Shown here piece by piece: positions 1 through 34,075 of a stretch of DNA of 34,461 bases (position 1 is its first letter; every line of letters starts with the position of its first letter). Made by a program: the position numbers and the translations under genes. The DNA lies in assembly GCA_023266115.1 (NCBI GenBank), contig JAHFRU010000025.1:1-34461 (forward strand), given 5' to 3'. The notes below the pieces were generated by a model, which saw nothing but the letters and a program-made list of their open reading frames with translations, did no database searches and was not told the DNA's origin. The stretch comes from Gammaproteobacteria bacterium (GTDB lineage: Bacteria; Pseudomonadota; Gammaproteobacteria; VBWC01).

Positions 1-60
1 CAATGGGCGTATCTTTTCAAACTGTTCACGACTCACATCACTGGGGTAGGTTCTGCGCAT
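1..60 (-). CDS. IS5-type transposase, N-terminal fragment (runs off window)
   Basis: Reading leftwards from an ATG at 60-58 the frame gives MRRTYPSDVSREQFEKIRPL, which matches the usual opening of IS5/IS4-type transposases (pattern: basic start, YPSD, then EQ-E-I-PL). The gene continues past base 1, so only 20 residues are visible and no catalytic residue can be checked. The call rests on this short N-terminal signature and on the terminus-like sequence just outside it. Confidence 0.6.
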   Translation of the reverse strand, partial: MRRTYPSDVSREQFEKIRPL

Positions 61-121
61 GGTCTCGCTTCGATTAAAACAGAAGCGTAAATCATAGACC
101 AAAGATCGTGAACAGGTTCTC
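1..121 (-). mobile_element. Right-hand end of an IS5-type insertion sequence
   Basis: The transposase start at 60 is followed outward by about 60 bp of AT-richer leader. This ends near 102-118 in a sequence that reads AGAACCTGTTCACGATCT on the minus strand, a form common at ends of IS5-group elements. The presumed outer edge falls at the stop codon (122-120) of the exonuclease gene, so the insertion may have fixed the last residues of that protein. The opposite end and the target duplication lie outside the window. Confidence 0.5.
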
Positions 122-1556: not shown

Positions 1557-1659
1557 TGTCAGGGACACATCCGCAATAAGGAGATGGAGGCAACCACAGG
1601 ATAGTACCGCAAAAGCAGTGGCTGCCGGTGCACCGGCTCGCCCTATCGTTATTGTCCAG

Positions 1660-2484
1660 TCACGTCCAACCTGCCGGATCCACGTGATAATAGCCACGCA
1701 ACGCTGCATACAGTTCGCGATGTTCGCGCGCCAGCTCGCGCGGCTTTTCGAAAAACGTCTCGGTGGCGACCGCGAAGAACTCCGCCGGCTCCGTTGCGCC
1801 GTAGGGGTTCAATACCGTTTCCCGGCCGGCCTCGATGTCGGTGAGCAAGCGGTCGTATTCGCGCTGGAATACGTTCGCCCAGGTGGCCGCAGCCGCCGCC
1901 GAACTGAGTAAGGGCGCGCCGTCGCCCCCGCCGATCTCGAAATCCAGCTGATGGGCAAACTCGTGCAGCACGACGTTGCCGCCGTCCTCGAAGTTGCTGG
2001 CGCCGTATTCCACGTCATCCCACGATAAAATCACCGGGCCGCGCTCCCACGCCTCACCGGCACGCTCCTGCGTTTCCGCGGACACGATGCCGGCGCCATC
2101 CTCTTCCTGATGATCCACCGCATACGTGGATGGGTAGACCAGAATCGTTCGGAACAACGGGAACATCGTCGTCTCGCGATTCAACAACAACAGGCACGCC
2201 TGGGCCGCTACCACCACGCGGACAGCCTCCGTGATCTCAAATCCGCCGCGACCGACGAAGGTCTTGTCCGCCAGAAAAACCAGGACCAGACCATGCAGCT
2301 GCTCACGCAACTCCATGGGCAACCGCCGATACACCGGCATGCGGTCTTTCAGGATGGCGAGCCACGCGGACGGAAACCGCTGCGCCCCGATACGCGCATG
2401 GCGGCGCCGGCGGATCGCGGGAGCACCGAGGATCCATGCGATAATCAGGACACCGCCAGCGACAGCCACCAGCAACACTTCCAC
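1660..2484 (-). CDS. mtfA: MtfA-like zinc metallopeptidase (M90)
   Basis: A 274-residue protein, close to the roughly 265 residues of E. coli MtfA. It carries the zinc motif HEFAHQLD followed by an acidic/glycine stretch, and the conserved tail EFFAVATETFFEKP with a downstream glutamate ligand. A hydrophobic segment near the N-terminus (LLVAVAGGVLIIAWIL) could anchor it. MtfA in enterobacteria binds the Mlc repressor and so affects PTS glucose uptake; whether that holds here is inference. The open frame runs far upstream antisense to the GST gene. I chose GTG at 2484 because GGAGG lies 6 bases before it and homology starts there; an ATG one base upstream is out of frame. Confidence 0.85.
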   Translation of the reverse strand: MEVLLVAVAGGVLIIAWILGAPAIRRRRHARIGAQRFPSAWLAILKDRMPVYRRLPMELREQLHGLVLVFLADKTFVGRGGFEITEAVRVVVAAQACLLLLNRETTMFPLFRTILVYPSTYAVDHQEEDGAGIVSAETQERAGEAWERGPVILSWDDVEYGASNFEDGGNVVLHEFAHQLDFEIGGGDGAPLLSSAAAAATWANVFQREYDRLLTDIEAGRETVLNPYGATEPAEFFAVATETFFEKPRELAREHRELYAALRGYYHVDPAGWT

Positions 2485-2712
2485 ATCAAACCTCCGGCGC
2501 TTGACAGCATGTTGTACTGTCGCGATGCGCCACCCGCGGGCTAACGCCGACCGGGAGCTGCGACCGTTCAATTTATCATAACCGGCTAGCAAAACAGGCG
2601 ACGACCAGGTCTCCGTGAGACCGTTATCACGCACCACTTGCCGCGGACATGCAATCGCTATAGTGTCTGTAACGCGCCGCCTGACGCCGCGTATACGATA
2701 CTGGAGCCTGCC

Positions 2713-3315
2713 ATGAAATTGTACGGATCGCTGACCTCGCCCTACGTGCGCAAGGTGCGCATCGTCGTGTTGGAACACCGGCAGGACTGCGAGTTTATCG
2801 TCGAGGGCCCGATGGATCTCGCCGGCAACGTCGCGCGGCTCAATCCGCTCGGCAAGGTCCCGGTGCTGGTCCGTTCCGATGGCGAGGTCATGTTCGATTC
2901 GCCAATGATCGTCGAATATCTCGACGGCCTCGCCGCAACACCGTTGATTCCAACAGGCGATGAACGCTGGCGGGCGCAACGCTGGCATGCGCTCGGACAG
3001 GGCATGGTCGACGCCACCGTGACGCGCATGATGGAAACCCGGCGTGCCGCCGAAAAACAGGATCCCGGCGTGATTGGCCGCCAGGAAGACAAGATCGCTG
3101 TGGCATTACGCTTCGCAGATGATCATATCGGGACAGGGGAGTTCCTGATCAACGAGGCATTCAGCATCGCGGATATTTCGCTCGGCGGCGCGCTGGCGTA
3201 TCTCGATTTGCGCTACACGCGTGACTGGCACAGCGCATATCCGCGCCTGTCGCGCTGGTTCGGCGCCATCAACAGCCGGCCATCATTTATGGAAACTGCG
3301 CCACCGTCGGGCTGA
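2713..3315 (+). CDS. Glutathione S-transferase family protein (YibF-like)
   Basis: A 200-residue protein. Residues 1-80 form the thioredoxin-like half, opening MKLYGSLTSPYVRKVRIV, where the S/P/Y region is the glutathione site seen in YibF-type GSTs. The segment GKVPVLVRSDGEVMFDSPMIVEYLD has the cis-Pro and the Asp-Ser pair that hold the glutathione gamma-glutamate. Residues 90-200 are the helical domain, with FSIADISLGGALAYLDLR. It probably conjugates or reduces a thiol substrate in the cytoplasm; the substrate is unknown. The start is the ATG at 2713 with GGAG about 7 bases upstream; the open frame begins earlier without similarity. It is divergent from mtfA. Confidence 0.88.
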   Translation: MKLYGSLTSPYVRKVRIVVLEHRQDCEFIVEGPMDLAGNVARLNPLGKVPVLVRSDGEVMFDSPMIVEYLDGLAATPLIPTGDERWRAQRWHALGQGMVDATVTRMMETRRAAEKQDPGVIGRQEDKIAVALRFADDHIGTGEFLINEAFSIADISLGGALAYLDLRYTRDWHSAYPRLSRWFGAINSRPSFMETAPPSG

Positions 3316-3349: not shown

Positions 3350-4214
3350 CAGTGTCTTTTGCGCTGATCTCCGTCCGGGCATAGCGACCGACAAGCGCGC
3401 AGGCCGCAACCATTGAGCTGGCCAGCCCGACGAAACCGGCCGTATTGCGCGAACTCGACACCTCCGAAGGCTGAACAGTTGCCCGCCGGCGGACCGTCGG
3501 CTGAGCCGAATGAAGGACGACGTCCGCCGGTGGCAGGAGATAGTGCCGGTCGCGTACCATGTCGACGACTGGAACAGCCTCGCTGGCGCGACCGGTTTTC
3601 GGATGCCGGCTACTCAGCGCGACAAAGCGGTTATCAGAAACGTGATTATCTAAGAGGCTGTCGAAAAACAGCCTGTGTGCGGTGCCGGGGCGCACCGCCA
3701 TTGTTCAAACAGGGTTTTATCTGTTTGAACAATGAAGCAAAGCACCCCTATCAAATTAATAGGGGTGCACTTTTTGCTTTGCGCGCTGGAAAAGACCATG
3801 GATGGACTTTTTCAACATCCTGCTAAAGGTGATCTGCACACCCGGCTGGATCAATAACGGCCGCGGCTGTCCGCCGCGACCACCGATACCGGCGTACTCA
3901 AGGCCGTGATCGGCAGCACCAGTGCCAGCGCAGAGTTCACGCCATCGCGCCCACTGCCGACACCGCTGCTACTGAATGTCGCATTTCCGGGCTTCGATCT
4001 CGTCACCGACGTGGCCGCCGGCGATAACGTTAGCAAACGGCTCCAGCACAACTTTATGGTGCTCGCCGTTCAGCAATATCGGCAGGCACCCGGTGACGAC
4101 CGGCATCACTGGCCGCTCGATGGCCTCACTACCGCGATCCCGGCCGATGCCACCGGTATCGCGTTGTCGGTAGATCCGACGCCGCTGCAGGCGACCGGCG
4201 GCTGGCTACGGTAA
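3350..4214 (+). pseudogene. DUF1223 thioredoxin-like secreted protein, frameshifted and interrupted
   Basis: Three reading frames must be joined to recover a DUF1223 protein. The first gives ELDTSEG up to about 3473. The second, after a one-base loss, gives GCNSCPPADRRLSRMKDD and VPVAYHVDDWNSLA (the family's CxxC and HVDYW motifs) to about 3583. The third gives WRDRFSDAGYSARQSGYQKRDYL up to 3650. A hairpin-rich element then occupies 3653-3823. After it come CTPGWINNG, another frameshift near 3885, and a final frame to the stop at 4212-4214 ending PLQATGGWL. Removing the element with one TA restores a good alignment. DUF1223 proteins are usually exported thioredoxin-fold proteins of unknown role. 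Start is uncertain; a GTG near 3354 is followed by an in-frame stop. Confidence 0.8.
3653..3823. mobile_element. 171-bp MITE-like element made of stacked hairpins, flanked by TA
   Basis: The element interrupts the DUF1223 pseudogene between two TA dinucleotides (3651-3652 and 3824-3825). Its ends are imperfect inverted repeats: left AGAGGCTGTCGAAAAACAGC, right (reversed) GCAGGATGTTGAAAAAGTCC. Inside are four perfect stems: 3655-3661/3668-3674, 3679-3685/3692-3698, 3700-3712/3721-3733 (13 bp) and 3742-3751/3759-3768, the last nested in GCAAAGC/GCTTTGC. It encodes no protein of note. TA duplication is typical of IS630/Tc1-mariner elements, but the parent transposase is not visible here. Confidence 0.65.
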
Positions 4215-4361
4215 CAATTTTTTTTGATTCTGGTGCCACCGGCTGGCGACAGTCACCCGGCAAACGGACAGTATTTTCCCGACCGCACGACTCTGTTGTT
4301 ATTGCCAGGGAACCGGCGTATCAATATGAGCAGGCACACAACCTTGTGAAGGAGCGACGCC

Positions 4362-4625
4362 ATGAGCAAAGGATTGTTTAATCTCGACACCCTGGTGGAA
4401 GGGCTGCAACAACAACGTGATGAGATCAAGGTTCAGCTGCATCTCGCCAAGGCCGAGGCCCGCGACGAATGGGCAGAGACGGAAAAGAAGCTCGAACAAC
4501 TGAAGACCAAGGCAAGCCGCATCCGCGAGGAAGCGGGCGCGGCATCAAGCGATGTGATTGAAGCGGCAAAACGGGTGGCCGAGGAAATCAAGCGCGGCTA
4601 CGCGCGCATCCGCAAGCAGATCTAG
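4362..4625 (+). CDS. Small charged coiled-coil protein, function unknown
   Basis: An 87-residue protein with no signal peptide or membrane segment. Almost the whole chain from about residue 10 to 87 is predicted helix rich in E, K, Q and A with heptad-like spacing (GLQQQRDEIKVQLHLAKAEARDE and onward), which suggests a coiled coil. AAGGAG lies about 8 bases before the ATG, so translation looks genuine. I do not recognise a named family. The gene stands alone between the DUF1223 pseudogene and the convergent mutarotase gene. Confidence 0.75.
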   Translation: MSKGLFNLDTLVEGLQQQRDEIKVQLHLAKAEARDEWAETEKKLEQLKTKASRIREEAGAASSDVIEAAKRVAEEIKRGYARIRKQI

Positions 4626-4747
4626 ACGATCGGCGTACCGCATGGCTATCCTGCGCGACGCGATGCAAGCGGTCGAACAATCCCGGCAGTTTATCTGCTG
4701 CGATTCTGCACCCGGGCATCTTGACCGGAACATCGCAGGCCACCCGG

Positions 4748-5647
4748 TTATTTTGCAACGCGGTAACCGACCGACAGCCGGTGCTCGGCGCCGGGCGCCA
4801 GGGTGACGGCATTCTCCGCCGTGTTCGCGCTTTCAACGCACACCATGCCGAGGTAGCCATCCTCGCCCATGTCACCCATTTTTTTTGCCTTGTCTATCCA
4901 CGGATTCCACACCACGGTCGAGTGACTGCCGGACTTGGTGATATGAATGCGCCGCTGCCACTCGGCGTCGTCGATAATGCACTCCGCCTCCGTGTTTACA
5001 TAAACGCGGTCGGTCTCGCCGGTAAACAGCACCGGCCCGATCTGTTGCCGGCGCTGCGCCGCGCCCACCTTGTCGAGATACTCCGCGCCGTCGAGCCCGT
5101 TTACCTTGACCTTGCGCACGTCGCCGACCGCGAAATAGGTGTGCAATGCCTCCGTAAGGGTGAGCGGCTTTTTGCCGGCGTTACGCGTCACCAGCTCCAG
5201 CTCCAGCGTATTGCTCACCGTCACATGCAACTCCACCGGGCTTGCATGGGGCCACTGCCTGCGCGTGATATCGTTCTCGATCAGTTCGAACGCCAGGCGC
5301 ACCCGGCCGTCGATCAACGGCCCGGCCCTGGTCACCCGCCACGGCACTGTGCGCGCGTACCCGTGCGCCGGGTAGCCCGACTCGGAGGCATGCGTCCCGA
5401 ACCACGGCCAGCACACCGGCGCGCCACCGCGTACCGACTTGCCCGGCACAAACTTCGCGTCATTCGACAGCCAGATCACCGGCTTTTCGCCGTCCGGCGC
5501 CCACGCGATCACCTGCGCTCCCTGCAGCGCGATTGTCGCCCTGCCGTGCGCGGCCGTCACCTCGGCAAAACCGACCCCGGCATACTCGCTGAAAGTCAAC
5601 GCGCCGGGGATACCAAAACGCGTGTTCAATTCCGCTACGTCTGTCAT
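4748..5647 (-). CDS. D-hexose-6-phosphate mutarotase (glucose-6-phosphate 1-epimerase)
   Basis: A 299-residue aldose 1-epimerase-fold protein of the YeaD/HPM type. It interconverts the alpha and beta anomers of glucose-6-phosphate and related sugar phosphates in the cytoplasm. Visible family signatures are ATIALQGAQVIAW, PVIWLSNDAKF, the phosphate-site region RGGAPVCWPWFG, PAHGYARTVPW (active-site His), LTEALHTYFAVGDV and VVWNPWIDKAKKMGDMG, then the C-terminal APGAEHRLSVGYRV. Length fits the family. The ATG at 5647 is preceded by GGGAGCGG. It runs convergent with the coiled-coil gene, with a 122-bp gap holding nothing I recognise. Confidence 0.92.
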   Translation of the reverse strand: MTDVAELNTRFGIPGALTFSEYAGVGFAEVTAAHGRATIALQGAQVIAWAPDGEKPVIWLSNDAKFVPGKSVRGGAPVCWPWFGTHASESGYPAHGYARTVPWRVTRAGPLIDGRVRLAFELIENDITRRQWPHASPVELHVTVSNTLELELVTRNAGKKPLTLTEALHTYFAVGDVRKVKVNGLDGAEYLDKVGAAQRRQQIGPVLFTGETDRVYVNTEAECIIDDAEWQRRIHITKSGSHSTVVWNPWIDKAKKMGDMGEDGYLGMVCVESANTAENAVTLAPGAEHRLSVGYRVAK

Positions 5648-17275: not shown

Positions 17276-20200
17276 TTATTCACTTGCTGGCACGGCAGCT
17301 TCCGCGGCCGGTGCTTGGTCTTTTTCCATCGCAGTGACGGGCTTTGCCGCCGGCGCGACAACGGTGACCTGTTGCGTCGCCGTACCCTTTTTGCCGGAAC
17401 TATCTGTCGCAGTCCACGTGACCTTATGCACGCCGATCTTGAACGGGCCGGTCTTGTCGGGTTTGGCGTCGAGTTCACCGTCGATCACATCGACCGCAGT
17501 CGCGGCGCCCAACTCAACGTCGGTTTCGTCACCGTCGGACTCAACAGTAATATCGGCGGGCGGCGTCACCACCGGCGAGCCACGATCCTCCACCGTGACG
17601 AACTGCGTGAGGCTGCTCTCGTTGCCCGCGCGATCCTTCGCATGCCAGGAGATCACCGTGGTGTCGATCGGATAAACGGCGGGCGCATCGCTGGCCACGG
17701 CCACTTCGCCGTCGACCAGATCAACCGCCCTGGCCTCGCCGGGATCGACGGTGGTTTTTTGGCCGGTCGCTTCCGTCACAACATCCTCCGGTACAACGAT
17801 CTCCGGCGGCGTGGTATCGGTGACGGTCACCCGCTGGATGGCCGTCGCCGTGTTGCCCGTGCTGTCCGTTACACGCCAGGTGACAGTGTAGCTACCCGGC
17901 GCGAAGGGTCCGGCCTGGTCAGGCGCCGGGGACAACGCGCCGTCGATGTTGTCCGTCGCGGTCGCCTTGCCAAGGTTTATCGCCGTCAACGGTCCGGTCG
18001 CTTCCACCGTCAAGTCCTTCGGCGCCGAAATCGTCGGCGCAGTCCTGTCGGTGATAGTCACCGCCTGCGTCGCGGTGCTGGCATTCCCCGCGGCATCCGC
18101 GACACGCCACGTAACGGTATGCGCGCCGGGCGCGAACGCCCCGATGTGGTCCGGCGTCGCTTTCAATGCGCCGTCGACGCTGTCCGTTGCCGTCGCATCG
18201 CCCAGCGCGACCTCGGTCTTCGCACCGGTCGCTTCAAGCGTGACATCCGCGGGCGGCATGAGTACCGGCGCGGTGGTATCAACCACTGTCACCGTCTGCG
18301 TTGCCTTGCCGGTATTGGTCGCCGCGTCGGTGGCGCTCCAGGTAATCTTGTGTACGCCGACGGCAAAGGGACCGGCCTGGTCAGGTTTCGCCGCCAGATT
18401 GCCATCGACCAGATCGACCGCTGTCGCCACACCAAGGTCGACCGACGTCGCACGACCAGCGGCTTCCAGCGCCACATCCGGGGGTGGCATCACCACGGGC
18501 ACCGTTTTATCGCTGACGAACACGCGTTGCGTCGCGGTGTTCAGATTGCCGGCCCGGTCGCTGACGCTCCACGTAATGGTATGCACGCCCGGCGCAAACG
18601 GTCCGGTTTGATCCGGTGCCGGCGCCAGCGCGCCGTCGACCTTGTCAGTCGCCGTCGCGCTGCCGAGATCGACCGCGGTTACCGCACCGGTGGCTTCCAC
18701 CCGCACATCCGCCGGCACGGTAATTAACGGCGAGGTCGTATCGACCACCGTAATCTTGCGCGCCACGCTGCTGTTGTTGCCGGCCTTGTCGGTCACGGTC
18801 CACGTCACCGCGGTCGTTCCGACTGGATAGGCGTCCGGCGCGTCGCTGGTCGGCCGCATCGCCCCGTCAACCATATCCTCCGCTGATACCTTCAGCGTCG
18901 CCGGTGTCGCCGGGCCAGTCGCCTCGATGGTGATATCCGCTTCCGCGACGATGCGCGGCGGCGTTTTGTCCGTCACCGTCACCGGCTGCTCCGCGCTGCC
19001 GGTATTACCGGCCTTGTCGGTCGCGCGCCAGGTGACGGTATGAACACCCGGCACAAACGGGCCGGTCTTGTCCGGTTTCGCCGCGAGGTTGCCGTCAACG
19101 AGATCACTCGCAACCGCTTCGCCGAGCTCTACGCCGGTAACAGCACCGGTCGCTTCGATCGTGATATCGCGCGGTGGGTTAACCATCGGCGGCGTCGTGT
19201 CCGTGATCGTGACTCGCTGTTTTACGCTGACGACGTTACCAGTAAAATCAGTCGCCTTCCACGTCACCTGTGTCGTGCCAACCGGAAATGTACCAGGCGC
19301 ATCGTTGGTGACAGCTGGTTTGCTATCGACAATGTCCGTGGCAGTGGCGTTACCCAGCACCACCGGCGTGGCGAGGTTGGTCGCTTCCGTGATGATGTCC
19401 CCCGGCACGGTAATCACGGGCGCGATCGTATCCCGGACAGTTATTTTCTGCGTCGCGCTACCGGTATTGCCCGCCTGGTCCTGGACGCTCCACGTAATGG
19501 TATGCTCGCCAACGGCAAACGGCCCGGTGACATCCGGTGCCGGGGACACGGCGCCGTCGACCAGATCAACAGCGGTTGCGATGCCGGGGTCGACCGGCGT
19601 CTTGAGATCGGTGCCCTCGATCACTACCGCCGGTGGCGGCGCGACGCGCGGAGCAGTGGTATCCGTTACCGTCACCTTCTGCGTCACTGTCACCGTATTA
19701 CCGGCCGTATCCGTGATGCTCCACGTCACGGTATGGGCGCCGACCGTAAACGGGCCGGTGGTATCGGCCGTCGGCGTGAGTTTGCCGTCGACGCTGTCGG
19801 TGGCGGTCGCGACACCCAGCTTGACGTCGGTCAGGGCGCCGCTGGCTTCGACGGCGATGTCCGCGGGGGCGGTGATCGCCGGCGCGGTGGTGTCGGTGAT
19901 GGTGAGGGTCTGGGTCGCGCTGCCGGTGTTGCCGGCCTTGTCTTTAATGCTCCACGTGAGGGTGTGGACGCCGACGCTAAACGGGCCGGTCTGATCGGCC
20001 TTCGCGGTCAGCGCGCCGTCGACGATGTCCACTGCCGCGGCCACGCCCGGGGCGATCGGGGTCTTCGCTCCCGTGGCTTCGACGGTGATGTCGGCCGGGG
20101 GCGTCACGTCCGGCGCGGTGGTGTCGCTGACGGTGATGGTTTGCGTCGCCTTGCCAAGGTTGCCGGCGGCGTCAGGCACGCTCCAGGTGATGGTATGGGT

Positions 20201-21775
20201 GCCCACGCTAAACGGGCCGGTCTGGTCGGGCTGCGGCGGCCGGTCGCCATCGACGATGTCGGTGGCGGTGGCGGCGCCGAGGTCGATCGCGGTGGCGGCG
20301 CCGGTCGCTTCCAGCGTGATGGCGGCCGGCGGTGTGACGACCGGCGCGGTCTTGTCGGTGATGGTGAGGGTCTGGGTCGCGCTGCCGGTGTTGCCGGCCG
20401 CATCGGTGACGCTCCAGGTGATGGTATGGGTGCCCACGCTAAACGGGCCGGTGGTGTCGGGCTGCGGCAGCAGGTCGCCGTCGACGATGTCGGTGGCCGC
20501 GGCGGTACCGGCTTCGACTGGGGTTTCCGGGCCGCTGGCTTCGAGGGTGATGGCGGCGGGCGCGCTGACTTTGGGCGCGGTGGTGTCGCTGATGAGGAGG
20601 CGTTGGACGGCGCTGCCGGTGTTGCCGGCCGTATCCGTGATGCTCCACGTCACGGTATGGGCGCCGACCGTAAACGGGCCGGTGGTATCGGCCGTCGGCG
20701 TGAGTTTGCCGTCGACGCTGTCGGTGGCGGTCGCGACACCCAGCTTGACGTCGGTCAGGGCGCCGCTGGCTTCGACGGCGATGTCCGCGGGGGCGGTGAT
20801 CGCCGGCGCGGTGGTGTCGGTGATGGTGAGGGTCTGGGTCGCGCTGCCGGTGTTGCCGGCCTTGTCTTTAATGCTCCACGTGAGGGTGTGGACGCCGACG
20901 CTAAACGGGCCGGTCTGATCGGCCTTCGCGGTCAGCGCGCCGTCGACGATGTCCACTGCCGCGGCCACGCCCGGGGCGATCGGGGTCTTCGCTCCCGTGG
21001 CTTCGACGGTGATGTCGGCCGGGGGCGTCACGTCCGGCGCGGTGGTGTCGCTGACGGTGATGGTTTGCGTCGCCTTGCCAAGGTTGCCGGCGGCGTCAGG
21101 CACGCTCCAGGTGATGGTATGGGTGCCCACGCTAAACGGGCCGGTCTGGTCGGGCTGCGGCGGCCGGTCGCCATCGACGATGTCGGTGGCGGTGGCGGCG
21201 CCGAGGTCGATCGCGGTGGCGGCGCCGGTCGCTTCCAGCGTGATGGCGGCCGGCGGTGTGACGACCGGCGCGGTCTTGTCGGTGATGGTGAGGGTCTGGG
21301 TCGCGCTGCCGGTGTTGCCGGCCGCATCGGTGACGCGCCAGGTGATGGTATGGGTGCCCACGCTAAACGGGCCGGTGGTGTCGGGCTGCGGCAGCAGGTC
21401 GCCGTCGACGATGTCCTCGGCGACTGCTGCACCCAGTTCGACCGATGTCGTCGGGCCGGTGGCCTCGATGGAAACATCGGCCGGTGCAATCACTTTCGGC
21501 ACCGTCGTATCCGCCACGATGACGGTATGCGTGCCGGACGTCGTATTGCCGTGCTCATCGGTGGCAGTCCATTTGATAATGGTCTTGCCGACCGGAAACG
21601 AGCCGGAAATTTCACCCGGCCTTACCGGTGTAGAGGCACCGGTTGCTTCAACGGAAACATCCGCCGGCGCCGTAACCTCAGGCGGAGGCGCACCGGCGAT
21701 ACGGGCCGGCTTGTCGGCCGCCAACACCGCGCTCGCGCTCGTCACCAGAACCAAAATTACTAGCAGCCGCTGCAT
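17276..21775 (-). CDS. Giant secreted protein of 19 HYR (hyalin) repeats
   Basis: A 1499-residue protein. Residues 1-19 (MQRLLVILVLVTSASAVLA) are a signal peptide. The rest is 19 tandem HYR units of about 77 residues, each running APADVTLEATG..., ATATDxVDG, TGPFxVGxHTITWxVTDAAGN, and an Ig-like ending ATQTVTVTDTTAP; the first unit is shorter. The chain ends in an Ala/Glu-rich tail with no LPxTG, PEP-CTERM or membrane anchor. HYR domains are Ig-like adhesive folds, so a cell-surface or matrix role is likely but unproven. Units 2-5 and 6-9 are near copies of each other at DNA level. It faces the small secreted protein gene. Confidence 0.85.
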   Translation of the reverse strand: MQRLLVILVLVTSASAVLAADKPARIAGAPPPEVTAPADVSVEATGASTPVRPGEISGSFPVGKTIIKWTATDEHGNTTSGTHTVIVADTTVPKVIAPADVSIEATGPTTSVELGAAVAEDIVDGDLLPQPDTTGPFSVGTHTITWRVTDAAGNTGSATQTLTITDKTAPVVTPPAAITLEATGAATAIDLGAATATDIVDGDRPPQPDQTGPFSVGTHTITWSVPDAAGNLGKATQTITVSDTTAPDVTPPADITVEATGAKTPIAPGVAAAVDIVDGALTAKADQTGPFSVGVHTLTWSIKDKAGNTGSATQTLTITDTTAPAITAPADIAVEASGALTDVKLGVATATDSVDGKLTPTADTTGPFTVGAHTVTWSITDTAGNTGSAVQRLLISDTTAPKVSAPAAITLEASGPETPVEAGTAAATDIVDGDLLPQPDTTGPFSVGTHTITWSVTDAAGNTGSATQTLTITDKTAPVVTPPAAITLEATGAATAIDLGAATATDIVDGDRPPQPDQTGPFSVGTHTITWSVPDAAGNLGKATQTITVSDTTAPDVTPPADITVEATGAKTPIAPGVAAAVDIVDGALTAKADQTGPFSVGVHTLTWSIKDKAGNTGSATQTLTITDTTAPAITAPADIAVEASGALTDVKLGVATATDSVDGKLTPTADTTGPFTVGAHTVTWSITDTAGNTVTVTQKVTVTDTTAPRVAPPPAVVIEGTDLKTPVDPGIATAVDLVDGAVSPAPDVTGPFAVGEHTITWSVQDQAGNTGSATQKITVRDTIAPVITVPGDIITEATNLATPVVLGNATATDIVDSKPAVTNDAPGTFPVGTTQVTWKATDFTGNVVSVKQRVTITDTTPPMVNPPRDITIEATGAVTGVELGEAVASDLVDGNLAAKPDKTGPFVPGVHTVTWRATDKAGNTGSAEQPVTVTDKTPPRIVAEADITIEATGPATPATLKVSAEDMVDGAMRPTSDAPDAYPVGTTAVTWTVTDKAGNNSSVARKITVVDTTSPLITVPADVRVEATGAVTAVDLGSATATDKVDGALAPAPDQTGPFAPGVHTITWSVSDRAGNLNTATQRVFVSDKTVPVVMPPPDVALEAAGRATSVDLGVATAVDLVDGNLAAKPDQAGPFAVGVHKITWSATDAATNTGKATQTVTVVDTTAPVLMPPADVTLEATGAKTEVALGDATATDSVDGALKATPDHIGAFAPGAHTVTWRVADAAGNASTATQAVTITDRTAPTISAPKDLTVEATGPLTAINLGKATATDNIDGALSPAPDQAGPFAPGSYTVTWRVTDSTGNTATAIQRVTVTDTTPPEIVVPEDVVTEATGQKTTVDPGEARAVDLVDGEVAVASDAPAVYPIDTTVISWHAKDRAGNESSLTQFVTVEDRGSPVVTPPADITVESDGDETDVELGAATAVDVIDGELDAKPDKTGPFKIGVHKVTWTATDSSGKKGTATQQVTVVAPAAKPVTAMEKDQAPAAEAAVPASE
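19701..20491 (-). repeat. 791-bp direct duplication inside the HYR gene, copy proximal to the 3' end
   Basis: This block recurs at 20625-21415 with an offset of exactly 924 bp, that is 308 codons or four HYR units. By eye the copies differ at one base only: CTC at about 20411 versus CGC at about 21335, changing Ser to Arg in WSVTDAAGN. Other HYR units of the gene are much more diverged. Confidence 0.85.
20625..21415 (-). repeat. 791-bp direct duplication inside the HYR gene, copy proximal to the 5' end
   Basis: Partner of the block at 19701-20491. Near identity over 791 bp in a region where other repeats differ freely points to recent unequal recombination or slippage, in frame, by a four-unit step. 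Confidence 0.85.
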
Positions 21776-22786: not shown

Positions 22787-23935
22787 TCACCACAAACGCC
22801 TCTCCAGCTCCACCTTTAGCTGACGCTGCATCTGCTCCGGTCCGGCGAGTATCACACCAAGTTTGCCGGCGAGGATCACCCCCCAATTGACAATGACGAC
22901 GCCGGCACCGATGAAGTCGCTGTACTCAATGCCAGTGAGATCAATTTCGCCGAGACAGCGCCTGCGGCTGTCGACCTGGATCGCACACCATTCGTCCAGT
23001 CCGAGCTGTTGCGCAATCAATACCGCGTAGGCGCTATCGCTGTACCACGGCCGGCAACCGATCGGCAGGTAACGAGGGCGATCGCCGGCCATCACCACCG
23101 CAACCTCAAAATCGAACGCACCGCGTAAACCGACGGCGGCCAGCCATGTCGCTATCGGCTGCACAACATGCCACGGCGCGTGCTCAGAGGGAAAGCGCGT
23201 GGCCTGATGAACGTGGTCGGCGCGTCGTTTCTCGGTCACCGCAACACGCGTGGCGATATCATCCACTGCTGTGTAATGCAGCGTCAGAAAACAATCCGAC
23301 GTGAGTTCCTCCTGAACTTGCAATGGAACAGGCGGCTCAAAATGCGTCAGCGCGTCATTCAGTGCCGCGCTGGAAGCGCATCGATAAATACCACCGCCAT
23401 AGGTCGGAGCACTGGCCTTGAGATAACATGGATACGGGAACGTAGTGACATCCTTGATATCGCGACGACGATCAAAGCGCCAGGTGCGCGGAACGTCGAC
23501 CTTGAGCTCGCCGGCAAGTTGAATGAAGTTGTTCTTTGAGCCCATATAACGCACCGCCTCGCACCACTTGCGATCGTCGTGATGGCGCTGCGCCTGCTCA
23601 TCGAAAAACTGCACTGATATCTCCTGACCCGCCAGCTGTATGATCCATGAGAAATTCGTATCCCATATCACATCGCGCGAATGCGTCAAGCCGATGCGAT
23701 CATAATGGCGGACGATCGCGGCCCATTCACCACGCAATTCGGGCGCCAGCTGTATCGTATCCTCAGGATTCGATAACCCCAACGCGCGCGCCGAGTACAA
23801 TCGCATTAGCGGATCGGTACTGCGCGCAAAGCGACTGATATCGTGATTCAGAATCCGGCGCTTGCCGCCCGAGCCCGGTACTCGCGCATCCGCGTTCATC
23901 GGTCTGACCGCTGCCCCTGCGTTGCCAATCGCCAT
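22787..23935 (-). CDS. ATP-grasp-fold protein with altered metal-binding motif
   Basis: A 382-residue protein. Residues about 130-320 read as an ATP-grasp domain: the nucleotide lysine in PYPCYLKASAPTYGGG (K173), a hinge VQEEL near 207-211, and FDFEVAVV near 275. In related ligases the metal site reads like PIECNPRFNG; here residues 291-300 are PIGCRPWYSD, so the Glu and Asn that bind magnesium appear replaced by Gly and Arg. The tail VIVNWGVILAGKLGVILAGP looks like that of one ATP-grasp subfamily. Substrate unknown; it may be inactive or bind metal differently. It is 1.1 kb from, and divergent to, the amidoligase cluster. The start at 23935 is a best guess. Confidence 0.6.
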   Translation of the reverse strand: MAIGNAGAAVRPMNADARVPGSGGKRRILNHDISRFARSTDPLMRLYSARALGLSNPEDTIQLAPELRGEWAAIVRHYDRIGLTHSRDVIWDTNFSWIIQLAGQEISVQFFDEQAQRHHDDRKWCEAVRYMGSKNNFIQLAGELKVDVPRTWRFDRRRDIKDVTTFPYPCYLKASAPTYGGGIYRCASSAALNDALTHFEPPVPLQVQEELTSDCFLTLHYTAVDDIATRVAVTEKRRADHVHQATRFPSEHAPWHVVQPIATWLAAVGLRGAFDFEVAVVMAGDRPRYLPIGCRPWYSDSAYAVLIAQQLGLDEWCAIQVDSRRRCLGEIDLTGIEYSDFIGAGVVIVNWGVILAGKLGVILAGPEQMQRQLKVELERRLW

Positions 23936-25077: not shown

Positions 25078-25791
25078 GTGGACCGCACGTTACAACTCGA
25101 GATTCTCCCCCAACCGAACGACAGCACCTGCGGACCCACCTGTCTGCACGCGGTGTATCGCTACTATGGCGAGACTCTGTCGCTGGATCAGATTATCGCC
25201 GAAACGCGCGAGCTCGAAACCGGCGGCACGCTCGCAGTATTTCTCGCCTCACATGCACTGCGGCGCGGTTATAACGCGACCATCTATACCTATAACCTGG
25301 GTGTATTCGATCCGACCTGGTTTACCAGGCCCGATATCAATCTTGCCGAGCGCCTCAAGAAGCAGGCGAAACACAAGAACGACACGAAACTGGAACATGC
25401 GACACAGGGTTATCTGGAGTTTCTCCGGCTTGGCGGCAAAATCGAGTTCGTTGACCTTGGCCCGGAGCTGATCCGTCGTTACTTGAAAAAAGGGATCCCG
25501 ATCCTGACCGGGTTGAGTTCCACCTATCTCTACCAGGCGGCGAGAGAATCCGGCACAAATGTTACGCAGGATGACGACGTGCGTGGCGAACCAGCCGGTC
25601 ATTTCGTGGTACTGTGCGGTTACAAGAAGGAACCACGTACTGTGATGGTGGCGGACCCGTATCTGAAGAATCCGCTGGCGCCCGGTCAATATTATGAGAC
25701 CGGAATTCATCGCCTCATCGGCGCGATACTGCTCGGCGTGTTGACGCATGACGCGAACCTGCTGATCATCCAACCTAAAAAGAATGTATAA
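25078..25791 (+). CDS. C39-like (papain-fold) cysteine peptidase of an amidoligase cluster
   Basis: A 237-residue protein if it starts at the GTG at 25078. The catalytic set of a C39/papain-like fold is visible: Q12 and C18 in LPQPNDSTCGPTCLHAVY, H175 in AGHFVVLCGY and D193 in VMVADPY. There is no signal peptide, ABC transporter or membrane domain, so it is a free-standing cytoplasmic enzyme and not a bacteriocin exporter. It starts the gene set with RimK-like, GCS2-like and N-formylglutamate hydrolase genes, so it probably cuts or forms the amide link handled by those enzymes (inference). The start is uncertain: the frame extends to 24949 and no ribosome site is clear. Confidence 0.75.
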   Translation: MDRTLQLEILPQPNDSTCGPTCLHAVYRYYGETLSLDQIIAETRELETGGTLAVFLASHALRRGYNATIYTYNLGVFDPTWFTRPDINLAERLKKQAKHKNDTKLEHATQGYLEFLRLGGKIEFVDLGPELIRRYLKKGIPILTGLSSTYLYQAARESGTNVTQDDDVRGEPAGHFVVLCGYKKEPRTVMVADPYLKNPLAPGQYYETGIHRLIGAILLGVLTHDANLLIIQPKKNV

Positions 25792-25800
25792 TCTTCACAC

Positions 25801-27273
25801 GTGGGAATTCTAATCGTTGTCAATTCGCCCAAGGACTGGCCGATCGCGAGCGGCCAGGCGCAGGTGATTTCGGCCAAATCCTATCTCACCAATCCGACCT
25901 ATACCAACATGCGCGGCGTCAAGGTTTTCAACCTGACGCGGTCATACCGTTACCAGAGCATGGGCTATTACGTGTCGCTGCTTGCGGAAGCACGCGGACA
26001 CAAACCTTTGCCGAGCATCAACACCATACAGGACATGAAATCGCAAACCATTATCCGGTTTGTGTCCGACGATCTCAATCAGCTGATACAGAAAAGCCTC
26101 GCCCCGATACAATCGAAAGAATTCGTACTGAGTATTTACTTCGGCCGCAACCTTGCCAAACGTTATGACCGTCTGAGTCTTAATCTGTTTAACCTGTTTC
26201 CAGCACCATTGCTGCGTGCACGCTTCGTACGCGGCCGCGAATGGCAGCTGCAGAATATCAGCCCGATCTCATCGAACGGCATCCCGGCGGAACATTGGCC
26301 GTTTGTGCTCGACATGGCGGCACAACACTTCGCCGGCAAGCGGTTCCGGGCGCGAAAACGTTCGGAAACCCGCTATGATCTCGCGATACTGCACAATCCG
26401 AAGGAAATGCACGCACCTTCCGATGAACGCGCCTTGAAGAAATTCGTCAAGGCCGCGGAGTCGCTCGGCATCGCCGCGGACCTGATCACCAAGGATGACT
26501 ACGGCACGCTCGCGGAGTATGACGCATTGTTCATTCGCGAAACCACGCAGGTCAACCATCACACCTATCGCTTTGCGCGCCGCGCCACCGCCGAGGGCAT
26601 GGTGGTCGTCGATGATCCGGACTCCATCCTTAAATGCACCAACAAGGTTTACCTTGCCGAGCTGATGACGCAGCATGATATCCCTATCCCCAAGACATGG
26701 ATCATCAGCAAGGAGAGCCTGCCCAAGATAACCGGCGAGATATCCATGCCGTGCGTGCTCAAACAACCCGACAGCGCGTTCTCGCAGGGCGTCATCAAGG
26801 TGCACGATATGGAGTCCTTTATATCGGAAACCAAACGGCTGCTGGATAAATCGGATCTGATCATCGGCCAGGAGTATCTGCCAACCGATTTTGACTGGCG
26901 CGTTGGTATTTTCGATCGCCGCCCGCTTTATGTATGCAAATATTTCATGGCACGCCAGCACTGGCAAATTGTCGAACATGACGAACACGGCAAGTCGCAC
27001 GAAGGCCGCGCTGAAACCTTCACTGTCGAGGAGGCCCCGCCAAAGCTGATACGTATCGCGTTACGGGCCGCCAATCTGATCGGTGACGGTCTGTACGGTG
27101 TGGATATCAAACAAGTCGGCAAAAAATACTATGTTATCGAGGTCAACGATAATCCCAGTATCGATGCCACCGCCGAGGACCGGGTGTTAGGCAACCAGCT
27201 CTACACCGATATCATGTCGGTATTTCTCAAACGCATCGAGCAGCGTAAAGGCGGACGGCGCGATGCAGACTGA
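25801..27273 (+). CDS. RimK-like ATP-grasp ligase with N-terminal RLAN domain
   Basis: A 490-residue protein. Residues 1-150 match the extra N-terminal domain of long RimK-like proteins (GILIVVNSPKDWP, GYYVSLLAEARGHKPLPSI). Residues about 190-480 are the RimK-type ATP-grasp: nucleotide lysine in PCVLKQPDSAFSQGV, hinge LIIGQEYLPTDFDWRVG, and an intact metal motif EVNDNPS (447-453). Such enzymes join a carboxylate, usually of glutamate, to an amine through an acyl phosphate; E. coli RimK adds glutamates to ribosomal protein S6. This one is twice the length of RimK. The GTG start lies 9 bp after the peptidase stop and the gene overlaps the next by 11 bp, which implies coupled translation. Substrate unknown. 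Confidence 0.85.
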   Translation: MGILIVVNSPKDWPIASGQAQVISAKSYLTNPTYTNMRGVKVFNLTRSYRYQSMGYYVSLLAEARGHKPLPSINTIQDMKSQTIIRFVSDDLNQLIQKSLAPIQSKEFVLSIYFGRNLAKRYDRLSLNLFNLFPAPLLRARFVRGREWQLQNISPISSNGIPAEHWPFVLDMAAQHFAGKRFRARKRSETRYDLAILHNPKEMHAPSDERALKKFVKAAESLGIAADLITKDDYGTLAEYDALFIRETTQVNHHTYRFARRATAEGMVVVDDPDSILKCTNKVYLAELMTQHDIPIPKTWIISKESLPKITGEISMPCVLKQPDSAFSQGVIKVHDMESFISETKRLLDKSDLIIGQEYLPTDFDWRVGIFDRRPLYVCKYFMARQHWQIVEHDEHGKSHEGRAETFTVEEAPPKLIRIALRAANLIGDGLYGVDIKQVGKKYYVIEVNDNPSIDATAEDRVLGNQLYTDIMSVFLKRIEQRKGGRRDAD

Positions 27274-28510
27274 GCCACAGTTTCTGGGTCTGTTCGAGGG
27301 GTACGGCATCGAACTCGAATACATGATCGTCGACGCCGAGACCCTCGACGTATTGCCGGTTACGGATCAGGTATTGCACGCGGTTACCGGTGAGTTCGCC
27401 CAAGAAGTGGAAACGGGCGAACTCGCATGGTCGAACGAACTGGCGCTGCACGTCATCGAAATCAAGACCAACGGGCCGGCAACCGCGCTGGCGCCGTTAC
27501 CGGAATATTTCGCCAAGGACATCACCCGTATCAATCAACTGCTTGGCCCGCTAGGCGGGCGGCTGATGCCAACGGCGATGCACCCGTGGATGGATCCGCT
27601 CACTGAAACCCGGTTATGGCCTCATCATGACAGCCCGATTTACGAAACCTTCGATCGTATTTTCAGTTGCAGCGGTCATGGCTGGTCGAATCTGCAGAGC
27701 GTGCACGTCAATCTGCCGTTTGCCAATGATCGCGAGTTCGCCAAACTGCACGCCGCAACCCGTTTGATGTTGCCCATACTACCCGCGCTGGTTGCCAGTT
27801 CGCCCGTGATTGAATGGCGCGCCACAGGCGTCCTCGATAACCGGGTGAACGTTTACCGCAGCAACTCGCACAAACTGCCGTCAATCAGCGGGCTCGTCGT
27901 TCCCGAGCAGTTCTATACGAAGCGCGATTATGAACAGAATATTCTTGAACCTATCTACCGCGATCTCGCGCCTTACGACCCCGATGGCGTGCTGTGCCAC
28001 GAGTGGGTAAACTCGCGCGGCGCCATTGCACGCTTCGACCGCAATACGATTGAGATCCGTTTAATGGATATCCAGGAATGCCCGCTGGCCGATCTCGCCA
28101 CGGTGGCGCTCGTCAGCGAGACGATCCGTGCGCATACCGAGGAATTGTGGCTGTCGCTGGCCGCGCAGAAAAAATGGAAGATCGAGCCTTTGCACGAGAT
28201 TCTGCTGCAGACAATGACCGATGGTGATCAGGCCGTCATCGACAATCGCCGTTACTTGCAGGTATTCGGCTATCCCGAAGGCAGTAAATGCCGGGCTGTT
28301 GACTTGTGGCAGCACATTATCGAAACGCTTGCCCCGGGGATCGACGCGCGACAACAGTGGCAGGAAGCCTGGGATATCCTGACGCAGCGCGGGCCACTGG
28401 CGCGGCGCATCCTGACCGCGGTCGGTGACAGGCCGACACATGATGACATACGAGCGGTTTACCGGCAGCTATGCGCCTGCCTCGGCGCGGGCAAGATGTT
28501 TGCCGGCTAA
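27263..28510 (+). CDS. GCS2-type glutamate-cysteine ligase-like carboxylate-amine ligase
   Basis: A 415-residue protein of the glutamate-cysteine ligase GCS2 group. Landmarks are YGIELEYMIVDAETLDVLPV (metal-binding Glu pair), EWSNELALHVIEIKTNGP-like sequence at 52-73, the SCSGHGWSNLQSVHVNLPF region, and NTIEIRLMDIQECP near 255. The fold is that of glutamine synthetase, forming an amide from a carboxylate and an amine with ATP. Because it sits between a RimK-like ligase and an N-formylglutamate hydrolase, a product other than gamma-glutamylcysteine is likely (inference). It overlaps its upstream neighbour by 11 bp and its downstream one by about 70 bp. Confidence 0.85.
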   Translation: MQTEPQFLGLFEGYGIELEYMIVDAETLDVLPVTDQVLHAVTGEFAQEVETGELAWSNELALHVIEIKTNGPATALAPLPEYFAKDITRINQLLGPLGGRLMPTAMHPWMDPLTETRLWPHHDSPIYETFDRIFSCSGHGWSNLQSVHVNLPFANDREFAKLHAATRLMLPILPALVASSPVIEWRATGVLDNRVNVYRSNSHKLPSISGLVVPEQFYTKRDYEQNILEPIYRDLAPYDPDGVLCHEWVNSRGAIARFDRNTIEIRLMDIQECPLADLATVALVSETIRAHTEELWLSLAAQKKWKIEPLHEILLQTMTDGDQAVIDNRRYLQVFGYPEGSKCRAVDLWQHIIETLAPGIDARQQWQEAWDILTQRGPLARRILTAVGDRPTHDDIRAVYRQLCACLGAGKMFAG

Positions 28511-29204
28511 ACCAGTATTGCTGATTACCTGCGAACATGGCGGAAACACCATTCCCGCCCGCTATGCGCGGCTGTTTCACGGTACACAAAAAATTCTCAA
28601 GAGCCATCGCGGACATGATATCGGCGCGCTGAATCTCGCACGCTATCTTGCCCGGCACCTGAGAGCGCCACTGCATTACTCAACGGTATCGCGCCTGCTG
28701 GTTGACCTGAATCGATCGCCGCATCATCGCCAGCTCTTTTCCAGTCAGACACGCGTCCTCGACCGTGCGTCGCGGGCGGCAGTGCTTGCCCTCTACTATT
28801 CGCCCTACCGCAGCGCCGTCGAGAAACGCATCGTCCAGATAATCGCACGCGGCCATTCCGTCGTGCATGTTTCGGCGCACAGTTTCACACCGGTATTCAA
28901 CGGCAAGACACGCATGGCGGACATCGGCCTGCTCTACGATCCGGCACGTCGCAGCGAACGGCTGTTTTGTACGCGTTTTCAAAACGCGTTAAGCGACTTC
29001 GCACCGACACTGCGGGTGCGAAAGAATTACCCGTACAAAGGAACCGCGGACGGCTTCGCGACCTACTTGCGCAAAATATTCTCCGGGACTCACTACGCTG
29101 GCATTGAGCTGGAAGTCAACCAGCGCCTTTTTCTTGACGCCAAACTCGATTGCGGCAGAATACGCCTGAACATCTTGCGCGCGTTGACGACAACATTCGG
29201 GTAA
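28440..29204 (+). CDS. N-formylglutamate amidohydrolase family protein
   Basis: A 254-residue zinc hydrolase of the N-formylglutamate deformylase (HutG/FGase) family. Visible motifs are LLITCEHGGNTIP (zinc His), KSHRGHDIGALNLARYLA, LLVDLNRSPHH and VVHVSAHSFTPV (further zinc and catalytic residues), and YKGTADGFATYLR. It lies in no histidine-degradation context, so the likely substrate is an N-acyl or glutamyl amide linked to the ligases upstream (inference). It overlaps the GCS2 gene by 71 bp if ATG 28440 is used; GTG 28425 and TTG about 28500 are alternatives, the last fitting where homology starts. Confidence 0.85.
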   Translation: MMTYERFTGSYAPASARARCLPAKPVLLITCEHGGNTIPARYARLFHGTQKILKSHRGHDIGALNLARYLARHLRAPLHYSTVSRLLVDLNRSPHHRQLFSSQTRVLDRASRAAVLALYYSPYRSAVEKRIVQIIARGHSVVHVSAHSFTPVFNGKTRMADIGLLYDPARRSERLFCTRFQNALSDFAPTLRVRKNYPYKGTADGFATYLRKIFSGTHYAGIELEVNQRLFLDAKLDCGRIRLNILRALTTTFG

Positions 29205-31745: not shown

Positions 31746-31884
31746 TCAGGGCCAGATACCGCGTTGCAAGGTGACCGCCGCGAGCCGCTCGACCGCCACC
31801 ACCAGTGCCGCCGTACGCAGATCAACCGGTGCGGCCGCCACCGCCCCACCTGCTCCCGACGTGGCGTCGGCACTGGCCATCCTT
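31746..31884 (-). pseudogene. Out-of-frame C-terminal tail of the glutamate dehydrogenase
   Basis: In a frame shifted from the main gene the minus strand reads PVDLRTAALVVAVERLAAVT then LQRGIWP and stop (31748-31746), the conserved ending of bacterial glutamate dehydrogenases. The shift must lie in the linker between about 31840 and 31884. Restoring it would give a protein of about 460 residues. An assembly indel is a simple explanation. Confidence 0.7.
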
Positions 31885-33129
31885 CAGCGTCAGCCATCGG
31901 TCTACCACCACATCCACCGCGCGATACATCTTGCTCAGCAGCTTGCGATTGACGTGCTCGACGTCCCATTGCTCGTTGTCGATGTTCTGCACCCATTCAA
32001 AATAACTGACCGTCACACCGCCGGCGTTGGCGAGAATATCCGGGATCACTACAATGCCTTTCCTGGCAAGAATGGCGTCAGCGTCCGGGGTCACCGGTCC
32101 GTTGGCTGCCTCGACGACAAGCTTCGCCTTGACGCGGTGAGCGTTATCCCGGCGAATCTGGCTGCTGATCGCCGCCGGAACCAGAACGTCGCACTCGATC
32201 TCCATCAACTCCTCGTTGGTCACGGTGCGCGTATCCGGCAGCCCGACGACGGTACCGTGCTCCTTCTTGTAGGCGGCCACCTTGCCAAAATCGAGGCCGG
32301 CTTCGCGATAGATCCCACCCTGCGAATCACTCACCGCCACCACGGTAGCACCGGCCGTCCTGAACAAGTCGGCGGCAATGGCACCGACCTGACCATATCC
32401 CTGAATAACCACGCGCGCACCTGACAGATTGTCACGATGGGGAACAAGCTTTTTAGAAAGAAATCGCTCCGTTGCCAGCAGGCACCCGCGCGCGGTAGCT
32501 TCGCGACGACCGAGTGAACCGCCGATGCTGATCGGCTTGCCGGTGACTACCGGCAGATTGTTCCGGTCCGGATGCAGCATGTGGTACGTGTCATAAATCC
32601 ACGCCATGGTCTGTTCATTCGTGTACATATCCGGCGCCGGGATATCGGCGTGCGGGCCAATGTTGTCACCCAGCTCGGTAATGAAGCGCCGGGTAATGCG
32701 GCGCAATTCCGCTTCGGATAATGTCTTGGTATCACACACCACGCCGCCCTTGGCACCGCCGAACGGCACATCGATCAATGCGCACTTCCAGGTCATTAGG
32801 GCAGCCAGCGCCGTCGTCTCGCGGCGCGTCACGGTCGGGTGGTAGCGGATGCCACCCTTGCCGGCGCCCAGCAGGCGGCTGTGCAGAACGCGGTAACCGC
32901 GAAACATGCGTACCGATCCGTCGTCCATCTCCACCGGAAAACAGACCGAGACTGTGCGTTTCGGCGAGGTCAGAAAATCGATAATGCCGCGCTTGAGACC
33001 CTTGATATGGGCAGCGGCGCGCTGGAACTGCTGCCGGTAAATATGAACCGGATCGAGATCTTCATGCTGCGCGTCATCCCCGGCGCACTTGCTGGACTTC
33101 AAGGTTGACAGGGACGGCCGGTCTTTCAC
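31822..33129 (-). CDS. Glutamate dehydrogenase (Glu/Leu/Phe/Val family), C-terminus frameshifted
   Basis: Catalyses reversible oxidative deamination of glutamate. Signatures include KGGIRYHPTVTRRETTALAA, MTWKCALIDVPFGGAKGGV (catalytic Lys region), APDMYTNEQTMAWIYDTY and the NAD(P) Rossmann loop VVIQGYGQVGAIAADLF. The catalytic part is intact. After RWLTLKDG the frame ends in an unnatural Gly/Arg tail at 31822, while a second frame gives the usual family ending (see 31746-31884). I prefer GTG 33129, preceded by AAGGA with a 5-base gap; ATG 33153 lacks a ribosome site and lies only about 10 bases past a TATAAT box (33168-33163). Confidence 0.88.
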   Translation of the reverse strand: MKDRPSLSTLKSSKCAGDDAQHEDLDPVHIYRQQFQRAAAHIKGLKRGIIDFLTSPKRTVSVCFPVEMDDGSVRMFRGYRVLHSRLLGAGKGGIRYHPTVTRRETTALAALMTWKCALIDVPFGGAKGGVVCDTKTLSEAELRRITRRFITELGDNIGPHADIPAPDMYTNEQTMAWIYDTYHMLHPDRNNLPVVTGKPISIGGSLGRREATARGCLLATERFLSKKLVPHRDNLSGARVVIQGYGQVGAIAADLFRTAGATVVAVSDSQGGIYREAGLDFGKVAAYKKEHGTVVGLPDTRTVTNEELMEIECDVLVPAAISSQIRRDNAHRVKAKLVVEAANGPVTPDADAILARKGIVVIPDILANAGGVTVSYFEWVQNIDNEQWDVEHVNRKLLSKMYRAVDVVVDRWLTLKDGQCRRHVGSRWGGGGRTG

Positions 33130-33162
33130 TATTTTCCTTTCGTCGATATACATCGTGACTTA

Positions 33163-33283: not shown

Positions 33284-34075
33284 ATGGAAACCAAATTGTT
33301 CGAAGACCGAACCCGCGTTAGTGCGCGGGCACTATTCGTCGGTCACCGCATAGACCTGCGGGCCTTCGAGCTCACCAGACGGCTGGCGATTTCGCCGCTG
33401 CTTGTTGATGCAGGATCACACGGCTGCGCCGTCCTGTTCCGCTACGGAGTTGTGGCACTTTTCGGCCTGAGTGCCAGCGAGGAAGTCAGCTTTCTCGCCG
33501 AACTAAAGCCGCTGATCATTGATCCGATTGAAACGACGGTTCATGAAGACGTGATTATCGAACTCGGCGATGAAAGCAAGGAAGGCATAGTCGGGCCGAA
33601 TATCGTGTTACGCGAATTTACGATCGAGCGCCTGCAACTGATCGCCGATGTACTGTCCAAAAGCGTCGTGCTGGAGTACTACGAACGACGTATCGCCGGC
33701 AGTTTTGACCGGATCGAGCCGTTCGCGAACGAACTGCAGACCGGGGGGCAACATCGCGAGCCCGGAAAGGAGCTGTTGCGGCATATCGGCGATACGCTGT
33801 CGATCAATGCAATGATGGTCGGGCGCGTGGAAATCAGCGAAAAACCAGAGTTACTCTGGGAGCAACCGAAACTCGAGGGGCTTTACCTGCGACTGGAAAG
33901 CGAGTACGAACTGCGCGAACGGCACTTGTCGCTGGAGCGGAAACTCGCGCTGATATCGCAAACCGCCGGAACATTCCTGAGACTGCTGCAGGACAAACGT
34001 ACATTGCGTGTCGAGTGGTATATCGTGATCCTGATTTTCGTTGAAATCATTATCTCCGTTTCTAAAATGTTCTAG
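33284..34075 (+). CDS. RMD1/YagE family (DUF155) membrane-anchored protein
   Basis: A 263-residue protein of the RMD1/SIF2 (DUF155) family: VSARALFVGHRIDLRAFEL, CAVLFRYGVVALFGLSASEE, FTIERLQLIADVLSKSVVLEYYE, and a long helical segment LLRHIGDTLSINAMMVGRVE. It ends in one membrane helix (VEWYIVILIFVEIIISV), the usual tail anchor of this family. Yeast relatives are mitochondrial and sporulation or meiosis proteins; the bacterial role is unknown. The gene is alone, divergent from glutamate dehydrogenase across about 150 bp; the ribosome site is weak (GGATAT before the ATG). Confidence 0.85.
   Translation: METKLFEDRTRVSARALFVGHRIDLRAFELTRRLAISPLLVDAGSHGCAVLFRYGVVALFGLSASEEVSFLAELKPLIIDPIETTVHEDVIIELGDESKEGIVGPNIVLREFTIERLQLIADVLSKSVVLEYYERRIAGSFDRIEPFANELQTGGQHREPGKELLRHIGDTLSINAMMVGRVEISEKPELLWEQPKLEGLYLRLESEYELRERHLSLERKLALISQTAGTFLRLLQDKRTLRVEWYIVILIFVEIIISVSKMF

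Follow-up and report, generated by a model that had tools for sequence, protein, structure and literature searches.

A four-gene cassette in which a GCS2 ligase takes the place of a GNAT acetyltransferase beside an RLAN ATP-grasp ligase

The window considered here is the whole stretch of DNA that was analysed, 34,461 nucleotides of contig JAHFRU010000025.1 from a Gammaproteobacteria bacterium (VBWC01). Between positions 25078 and 29204, it carries four intact and tightly packed genes on one strand (Table 1). Moving along the cassette, the first two genes are 9 bp apart, the next two overlap by 11 bp and the last two by about 70 bp. These coordinates bear out the layout described by a sequence-only reading of the same DNA. 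No clear ribosome-binding site precedes the GTG start of the first gene at 25078, while the last gene has three candidate starts (GTG 28425, ATG 28440 and ATG 28443), which set its overlap with the GCS2 gene at 68-86 bp.

Table 1. Genes and domain of the cassette, in window coordinates
Feature	Position	Strand	Details
Papain-like Peptidase_C39_2 cysteine hydrolase	25078..25791	+	237 aa, GTG start, Pfam
RLAN + RimK-like ATP-grasp carboxylate-amine ligase	25801..27273	+	490 aa, Pfam
RLAN domain PF14401 inside the ATP-grasp ligase	25873..26307	+	Pfam
GCS2 (glutamine-synthetase-fold) carboxylate-amine ligase	27263..28510	+	415 aa, Pfam PF04107
FGase-family (N-formylglutamate amidohydrolase-like) zinc hydrolase	28425..29204	+	259 aa counted from GTG

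The family assignments rest on Pfam matches above the curated cut-offs, i.e., Peptidase_C39_2 for the first protein (52 bits, cut-off 24), RLAN PF14401 (162.5 bits, cut-off 25) together with a RimK domain (35.5 bits) for the ATP-grasp ligase, GCS2 PF04107 (95 bits) and FGase (90.6 bits). At the level of NCBIfam equivalogs, the cassette proteins match known families below threshold only. The ATP-grasp protein falls under the cut-offs for RimK, LysX, MptN and glutathione synthetase; RimK is its nearest characterised family, with 68.6 bits for TIGR00768 (cut-off 143.4) and 17.9 bits for NF007764 (cut-off 331). GCS2 scores far under every GshA and YbdK cut-off, and the FGase-like protein obtains 20.8 bits from the HutG model TIGR02017, the cut-off of which is 278.75. 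Because all equivalog matches are sub-threshold, the four proteins have known folds but no curated function.

The residues expected for catalysis are at least 93% conserved across the 35-46 relatives compared for each family. They comprise the predicted oxyanion residue Q12, nucleophile C18, H175 and D193 of the C39 protein, K321, R367, D435, E447 and N449 of the ATP-grasp ligase, E17, E19, E59, E66, H148, R252, E264 and R266 of GCS2 (46 relatives, with H63 also listed as conserved) and E37, H38, H152 and E230 of the FGase-like protein. The catalytic roles of these residues are those that we take from general family knowledge. The motifs described as intact in all four proteins by the sequence-only reading are indeed present and nearly invariant, and judged on these residues the whole set of four looks catalytically competent. 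Structure models of GCS2 and the RLAN-RimK ligase were built from five-sequence alignments and reach a pLDDT of 52 each, at which the pockets are unreadable. The nearest folds to the low-confidence GCS2 model are YbdK (1r8g) and plant GCL (2gwc), and PDB sequence searches returned no close solved relative of GCS2.

When species-representative contigs were scanned with the RLAN-RimK ligase, relatives appeared at 99% identity in G022, a gammaproteobacterial MAG of the host's genus, and at 58-59% identity in two Balneolaceae MAGs and one Bdellovibrionales MAG. The C39-RLAN-GCS2-FGase order surrounds each of these relatives, with one contig (L004) ending before any FGase gene. Conservation of the four-gene order thus extends over the host class, Balneolaceae and their phylum, and Bdellovibrionales and theirs. 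RLAN ligases are carried by 80 of 369 genomes of the host class, 35 of 296 in the phylum of the Balneolaceae genome and 44 of 291 in that of the Bdellovibrionales genome. A whole-genome search with the type B GCS2 alignment (type B being the RLAN loci with GCS2, described below) found this subfamily in 16 of the 369 class genomes (429-803 bits), all 16 of which carry RLAN (hypergeometric p 6.6e-12). With an order common to three phyla and a GCS2 subfamily found exclusively with RLAN, the arrangement far exceeds what chance would give. Genome G115 has the set in two parts, with C39-RLAN on one contig and GCS2-FGase on another, both away from contig ends. This split and the restriction of FGase to loci with GCS2 are the grounds for pairing the papain-like enzyme with RLAN-RimK and FGase with GCS2. 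No GCS2 relatives were found in phage records, and a defence-system reading was rejected, PADLOC giving no anti-phage model match for any of the four proteins.

The names GCS2 (glutamate-cysteine ligase family) and FGase (N-formylglutamate amidohydrolase) could evoke ordinary glutathione-synthesis or histidine-degradation genes brought together by accident, an explanation that draws on the family names only and that we consider extremely improbable. The host has its own gshA (PF08886, 613 bits) adjoining gshB (PF02955, 254 bits) on contig 35, apart from the cassette, which therefore does not serve housekeeping glutathione synthesis, and the cassette GCS2 is the host's sole PF04107 protein. Among the 15 class genomes with type B or split type B sets tested for a gamma-glutamylcysteine ligase of their own, host included, 12 have PF08886 and 2 have PF04262, G215 being the only one with neither. 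The sub-cut-off GCS2 scores, taken with the separate gshA-gshB pair, led us to reject the housekeeping glutathione reading, and the score of the hydrolase far below the HutG cut-off likewise rejects HutG; adjacency conserved across phyla also speaks against an accident. No hut genes were found within the window. The sequence-only reading had named two findings that would refute it, rare adjacency of the four genes elsewhere and an ordinary gamma-glutamylcysteine ligase and histidine-pathway deformylase behind the GCS2 and FGase names. Neither holds: the genes are regularly adjacent in three phyla, and family, separate gshA and scores set the two enzymes apart. Its view of the cassette as a real functional set is supported, and its proposal that a glutamyl conjugate is built, attached and trimmed is a hypothesis.

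The neighbours of RLAN ligases were counted with profiles built from the data in 156 loci from three phyla, with up to about 13 kb around each and a few of the loci sharing a genus or a genome. Two contexts emerge. In type A (101 of 156 loci), a GNAT acetyltransferase is present, and in the majority a Pfam check shows it fused to a DUF3335 papain-like domain beside RLAN; the Balneolaceae phylum has nine loci where GNAT and RLAN-RimK make up one protein and where a papain-like gene was not found nearby. In type B (47 of 156), GCS2 is present and the order is nearly always C39-RLAN-GCS2(-FGase). GNAT and GCS2 occur together in none of the 156 loci (Fisher p 6e-32). FGase is seen solely with GCS2, in 35 of the 47 GCS2 loci and 0 of the 109 others. 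Since the p-values treat loci as independent, which RLAN loci are not, the zero overlap and the tree are better guides. The papain-like proteins of the two contexts are homologous, as the type B protein aligns with DUF3335 (PF11814) with an hhalign probability of 97% (E 9e-11), including the Q, C, H and D positions.

The cassette has the RLAN ligase and, 9 bp upstream, the papain-like partner; it has no GNAT, and GCS2 and FGase are found there instead. It is a variant of the commoner RLAN system, with GCS2 standing in the place of GNAT. FGase is an accessory component: a reading in which all four enzymes are obligatory was rejected, as 12 of the 47 GCS2 loci are without FGase. The C39 gene was not detected in 5 of the 47. 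The system is modular: the RLAN core usually comes with a papain-like gene, and the exchangeable part is GCS2, which may or may not be accompanied by FGase. Because no papain-like gene was found near the GNAT-RLAN-RimK fusions, the smallest unit would seem to consist of two activities that form amides.

A tree of 148 RLAN proteins sets most of type A apart from type B. In a more careful tree of 64 rows, the nine GNAT-RLAN fusions group with type B with a support of 100/100. The best topology nests these fusions inside type B, and a single type B clade is not rejected (AU p = 0.09). Two independent GNAT/GCS2 swaps are accordingly not claimed. Whichever topology holds, one of GNAT and GCS2 has taken the place of the other at least once among RLAN backbones that are related. 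Within the supported type B groups, members of different phyla are interleaved, and the distances of the four proteins co-vary (r 0.64-0.86 overall, 0.45-0.73 for cross-phylum pairs alone), which suggests that the cassette spread as a unit.

Several other genes of the window and of the surveyed loci deserve mention. Upstream of the cassette, the minus strand encodes a 1499-aa protein with many HYR-like repeats (17276-21775), containing a near-identical duplicated block with 231/462-bp periods, and a 382-aa protein divergent to the cassette (22787-23935). The latter has no Pfam match, looks ATP-grasp-like by eye, gave nothing credible in a PDB search and, among the fetched loci, is present only in the host's genus. 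Downstream lie an archaeal-type glutamate dehydrogenase gene (31822-33153, minus strand), which did not turn up in the type B loci fetched from other genera, and a DUF155 (RMND1/Sif2-Sif3) gene (33284-34075). DUF155 occurs near RLAN in 14 of the 156 loci, in two phyla, in type A and type B alike and often directly adjoining RLAN (besides the window: L041, L045, L060, L073, L078, L082, L084, L100, L105, L108, L162, L164 and L166). Azospirillum brasilense, a cultured soil bacterium, has a type A locus. Two loci are unusual. The Pseudomonas aeruginosa plasmid pZYPA1927 (L219) encodes an RLAN ligase at 3905-5494 with no GNAT or GCS2 nearby and close to glutamate/aspartate ABC transporter genes, neighbours that give a weak hint of a glutamate-related substrate. 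A 9-kb Legionella adelaidensis record (L217) carries the type B trio RLAN-GCS2-FGase at 41-3232 along with the housekeeping genes dapF, fur and bamE; its "plasmid" label may be an assembly artefact.

The mutual exclusion of GCS2 and GNAT in related loci suggests that both cap an amine. They probably do an equivalent job, in its simplest form by capping the same amine. The best reading is that the RLAN core works with an amine-capping partner, either GNAT (acetyl) or GCS2 (gamma-glutamyl, together with FGase). In the model that we prefer, to which we grant a little less than an even chance, the two ligases and two hydrolases of the cassette together form a pathway for a small capped peptide. 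GCS2 would use ATP to activate the gamma-carboxylate of glutamate and couple it to the amine of X, which may be an amino acid or a small amine; the product would be gamma-Glu-X. RLAN-RimK would then activate the free carboxylate of X and attach to it another amino acid, Y, which judging by RimK is probably an acidic one, to yield gamma-Glu-X-Y, so that the chemistry would run in the GshA/GshB order. The papain-like enzyme could hydrolyse or transpeptidise the bond made by RLAN-RimK, and glutamate could be recycled by the FGase-like enzyme, which would cleave a bond of the N-acyl-glutamate type adjacent to the GCS2 product. In type A, GNAT and the RLAN ligase would make an N-acetyl-X-Y product, the minimal natural unit presumably being an amine-capping enzyme plus an ATP-grasp ligase. 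The two products are proposed because glutathione and NAGGN follow the same logic; indeed, Ngg, a GNAT-type enzyme, both N-acetylates a glutamine and links it to another (PMC8070244).

Several findings favour the capped-peptide pathway, namely the gene order shared by three phyla, the mutual exclusion of GNAT and GCS2, the restriction of FGase to GCS2 loci and of this GCS2 subfamily to RLAN carriers, the GNAT-RLAN-RimK fusions, the precedent of Ngg, the co-varying distances and the host's separate gshA and gshB, as well as G115, which keeps both halves although the set is split. Against it, a quarter of type B loci do without FGase, C39 is undetected in five GCS2 loci, GNAT and GCS2 could act on different molecules, and by analogy with RimK, which itself modifies S6/RpsF, a protein substrate would be equally compatible with the ATP-grasp family. 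The main rival is accordingly reversible protein tagging, since RimK modifies ribosomal protein S6 (RpsF) and RimB removes the tag, forming a writer/eraser pair (PMC11957791). RLAN-RimK would extend a protein C-terminus, an amine would receive a gamma-glutamyl group from GCS2 or an acetyl group from GNAT, and both hydrolases would act as erasers of the tags. RimK being the nearest characterised family (TIGR00768, 68.6 bits) fits this scheme, as does the type A GNAT, which exceeds the cut-off for RimI (87.9 vs 86.4 bits), an enzyme that acetylates protein N-termini. However, RLAN-RimK stays well under the RimK equivalog cut-offs, no target gene is linked to the cassette, the GCS2 family is known for small-molecule amides, and a choice between two unlike amine caps is more readily imagined for a metabolite than for a single site on a protein. 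We regard protein tagging as a serious though rather unlikely explanation.

Other metabolic roles meet more resistance from the gene content. The ligases might conjugate glutamate to a toxic amine or acid, from which the hydrolases would release it for use, as GCS2 and glutamine-synthetase-fold enzymes gamma-glutamylate amines and FGase is a catabolic family. Yet the loci examined show no conserved oxidoreductase, transaminase or transporter accompanying the set, and replacement by GNAT misfits an obligate gamma-glutamyl route, which makes detoxification or degradation improbable. Graspetide-like biosynthesis of a ribosomal peptide, by ATP-grasp macrocyclisation and C39 cleavage of a leader, is less probable still: ATP-grasp ligases make graspetides (PMC8939145), and leader cleavage is a task of C39-type peptidases in other systems, but the tightly packed genes leave no room between them for a precursor gene, a transporter is absent, and type A systems get by with two proteins, or with one fused protein.

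If the capped-peptide pathway is correct, a widespread peptide metabolite would be hidden, as would a tag under the rival scheme, behind standard annotation names such as "RimK family protein", "glutamate-cysteine ligase family protein" and "N-formylglutamate amidohydrolase", all three of which appear in the Legionella adelaidensis record. A bolder proposal, which we advance as doubtful, is that of a new class of low-molecular-weight peptides in at least three phyla, built on the RLAN core and capped with acetyl by GNAT or gamma-glutamyl by GCS2; the present cassette would make, trim and recycle a gamma-glutamyl tripeptide in parallel to, and separately from, glutathione in the same cell. For RLAN, which has a name but no assigned role, the rule that its partner is GNAT or GCS2, never both, places a direct and testable constraint on its chemistry. 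The domain is named in Pfam, presumably after the amidoligase survey of Iyer et al. 2009. A published description of the four-gene set was not found in the literature searched, which excludes that survey, where the set may already be on record. The cassette belongs among the predicted amidoligase systems.

Among known systems, type A is like the cassette in its RLAN-ATP-grasp family and homologous papain-like domain, and differs in the fusion of GNAT with the papain domain, or in some loci with RLAN, and in lacking GCS2 and FGase. The nearest worked-out chemistries are glutathione synthesis (GCS and ATP-grasp) and NAGGN synthesis (GNAT and ATP-grasp). Glutathione synthesis likewise employs a glutamate-cysteine-ligase-like enzyme followed by an ATP-grasp ligase, whereas the cassette uses other subfamilies, an RLAN-bearing ATP-grasp that is RimK-like rather than GshB-like, and extra hydrolases. 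As for Ngg, which presumably has no RLAN domain, its model TIGR03103 matched none of the window's proteins at E 0.01 (NCBIfam) and gave the type A GNAT-papain protein of L041 a score of 30.7, with a cut-off of 569. The NAGGN pathway (AsnO, Ngg and a peptidase) resembles the cassette in that an acyl-transfer and a peptide-bond step produce a capped dipeptide and that the operon includes a peptidase gene (PMC8070244), and the cassette is unlike it in having no asparagine synthetase-like gene. Finally, RimK/RimB also couples a RimK-like ATP-grasp ligase to a dedicated hydrolase (PMC11957791), but RimB is an aspartic protease, in contrast to the papain-like hydrolase of the cassette, and the Rim system contains neither an RLAN domain nor GCS2.
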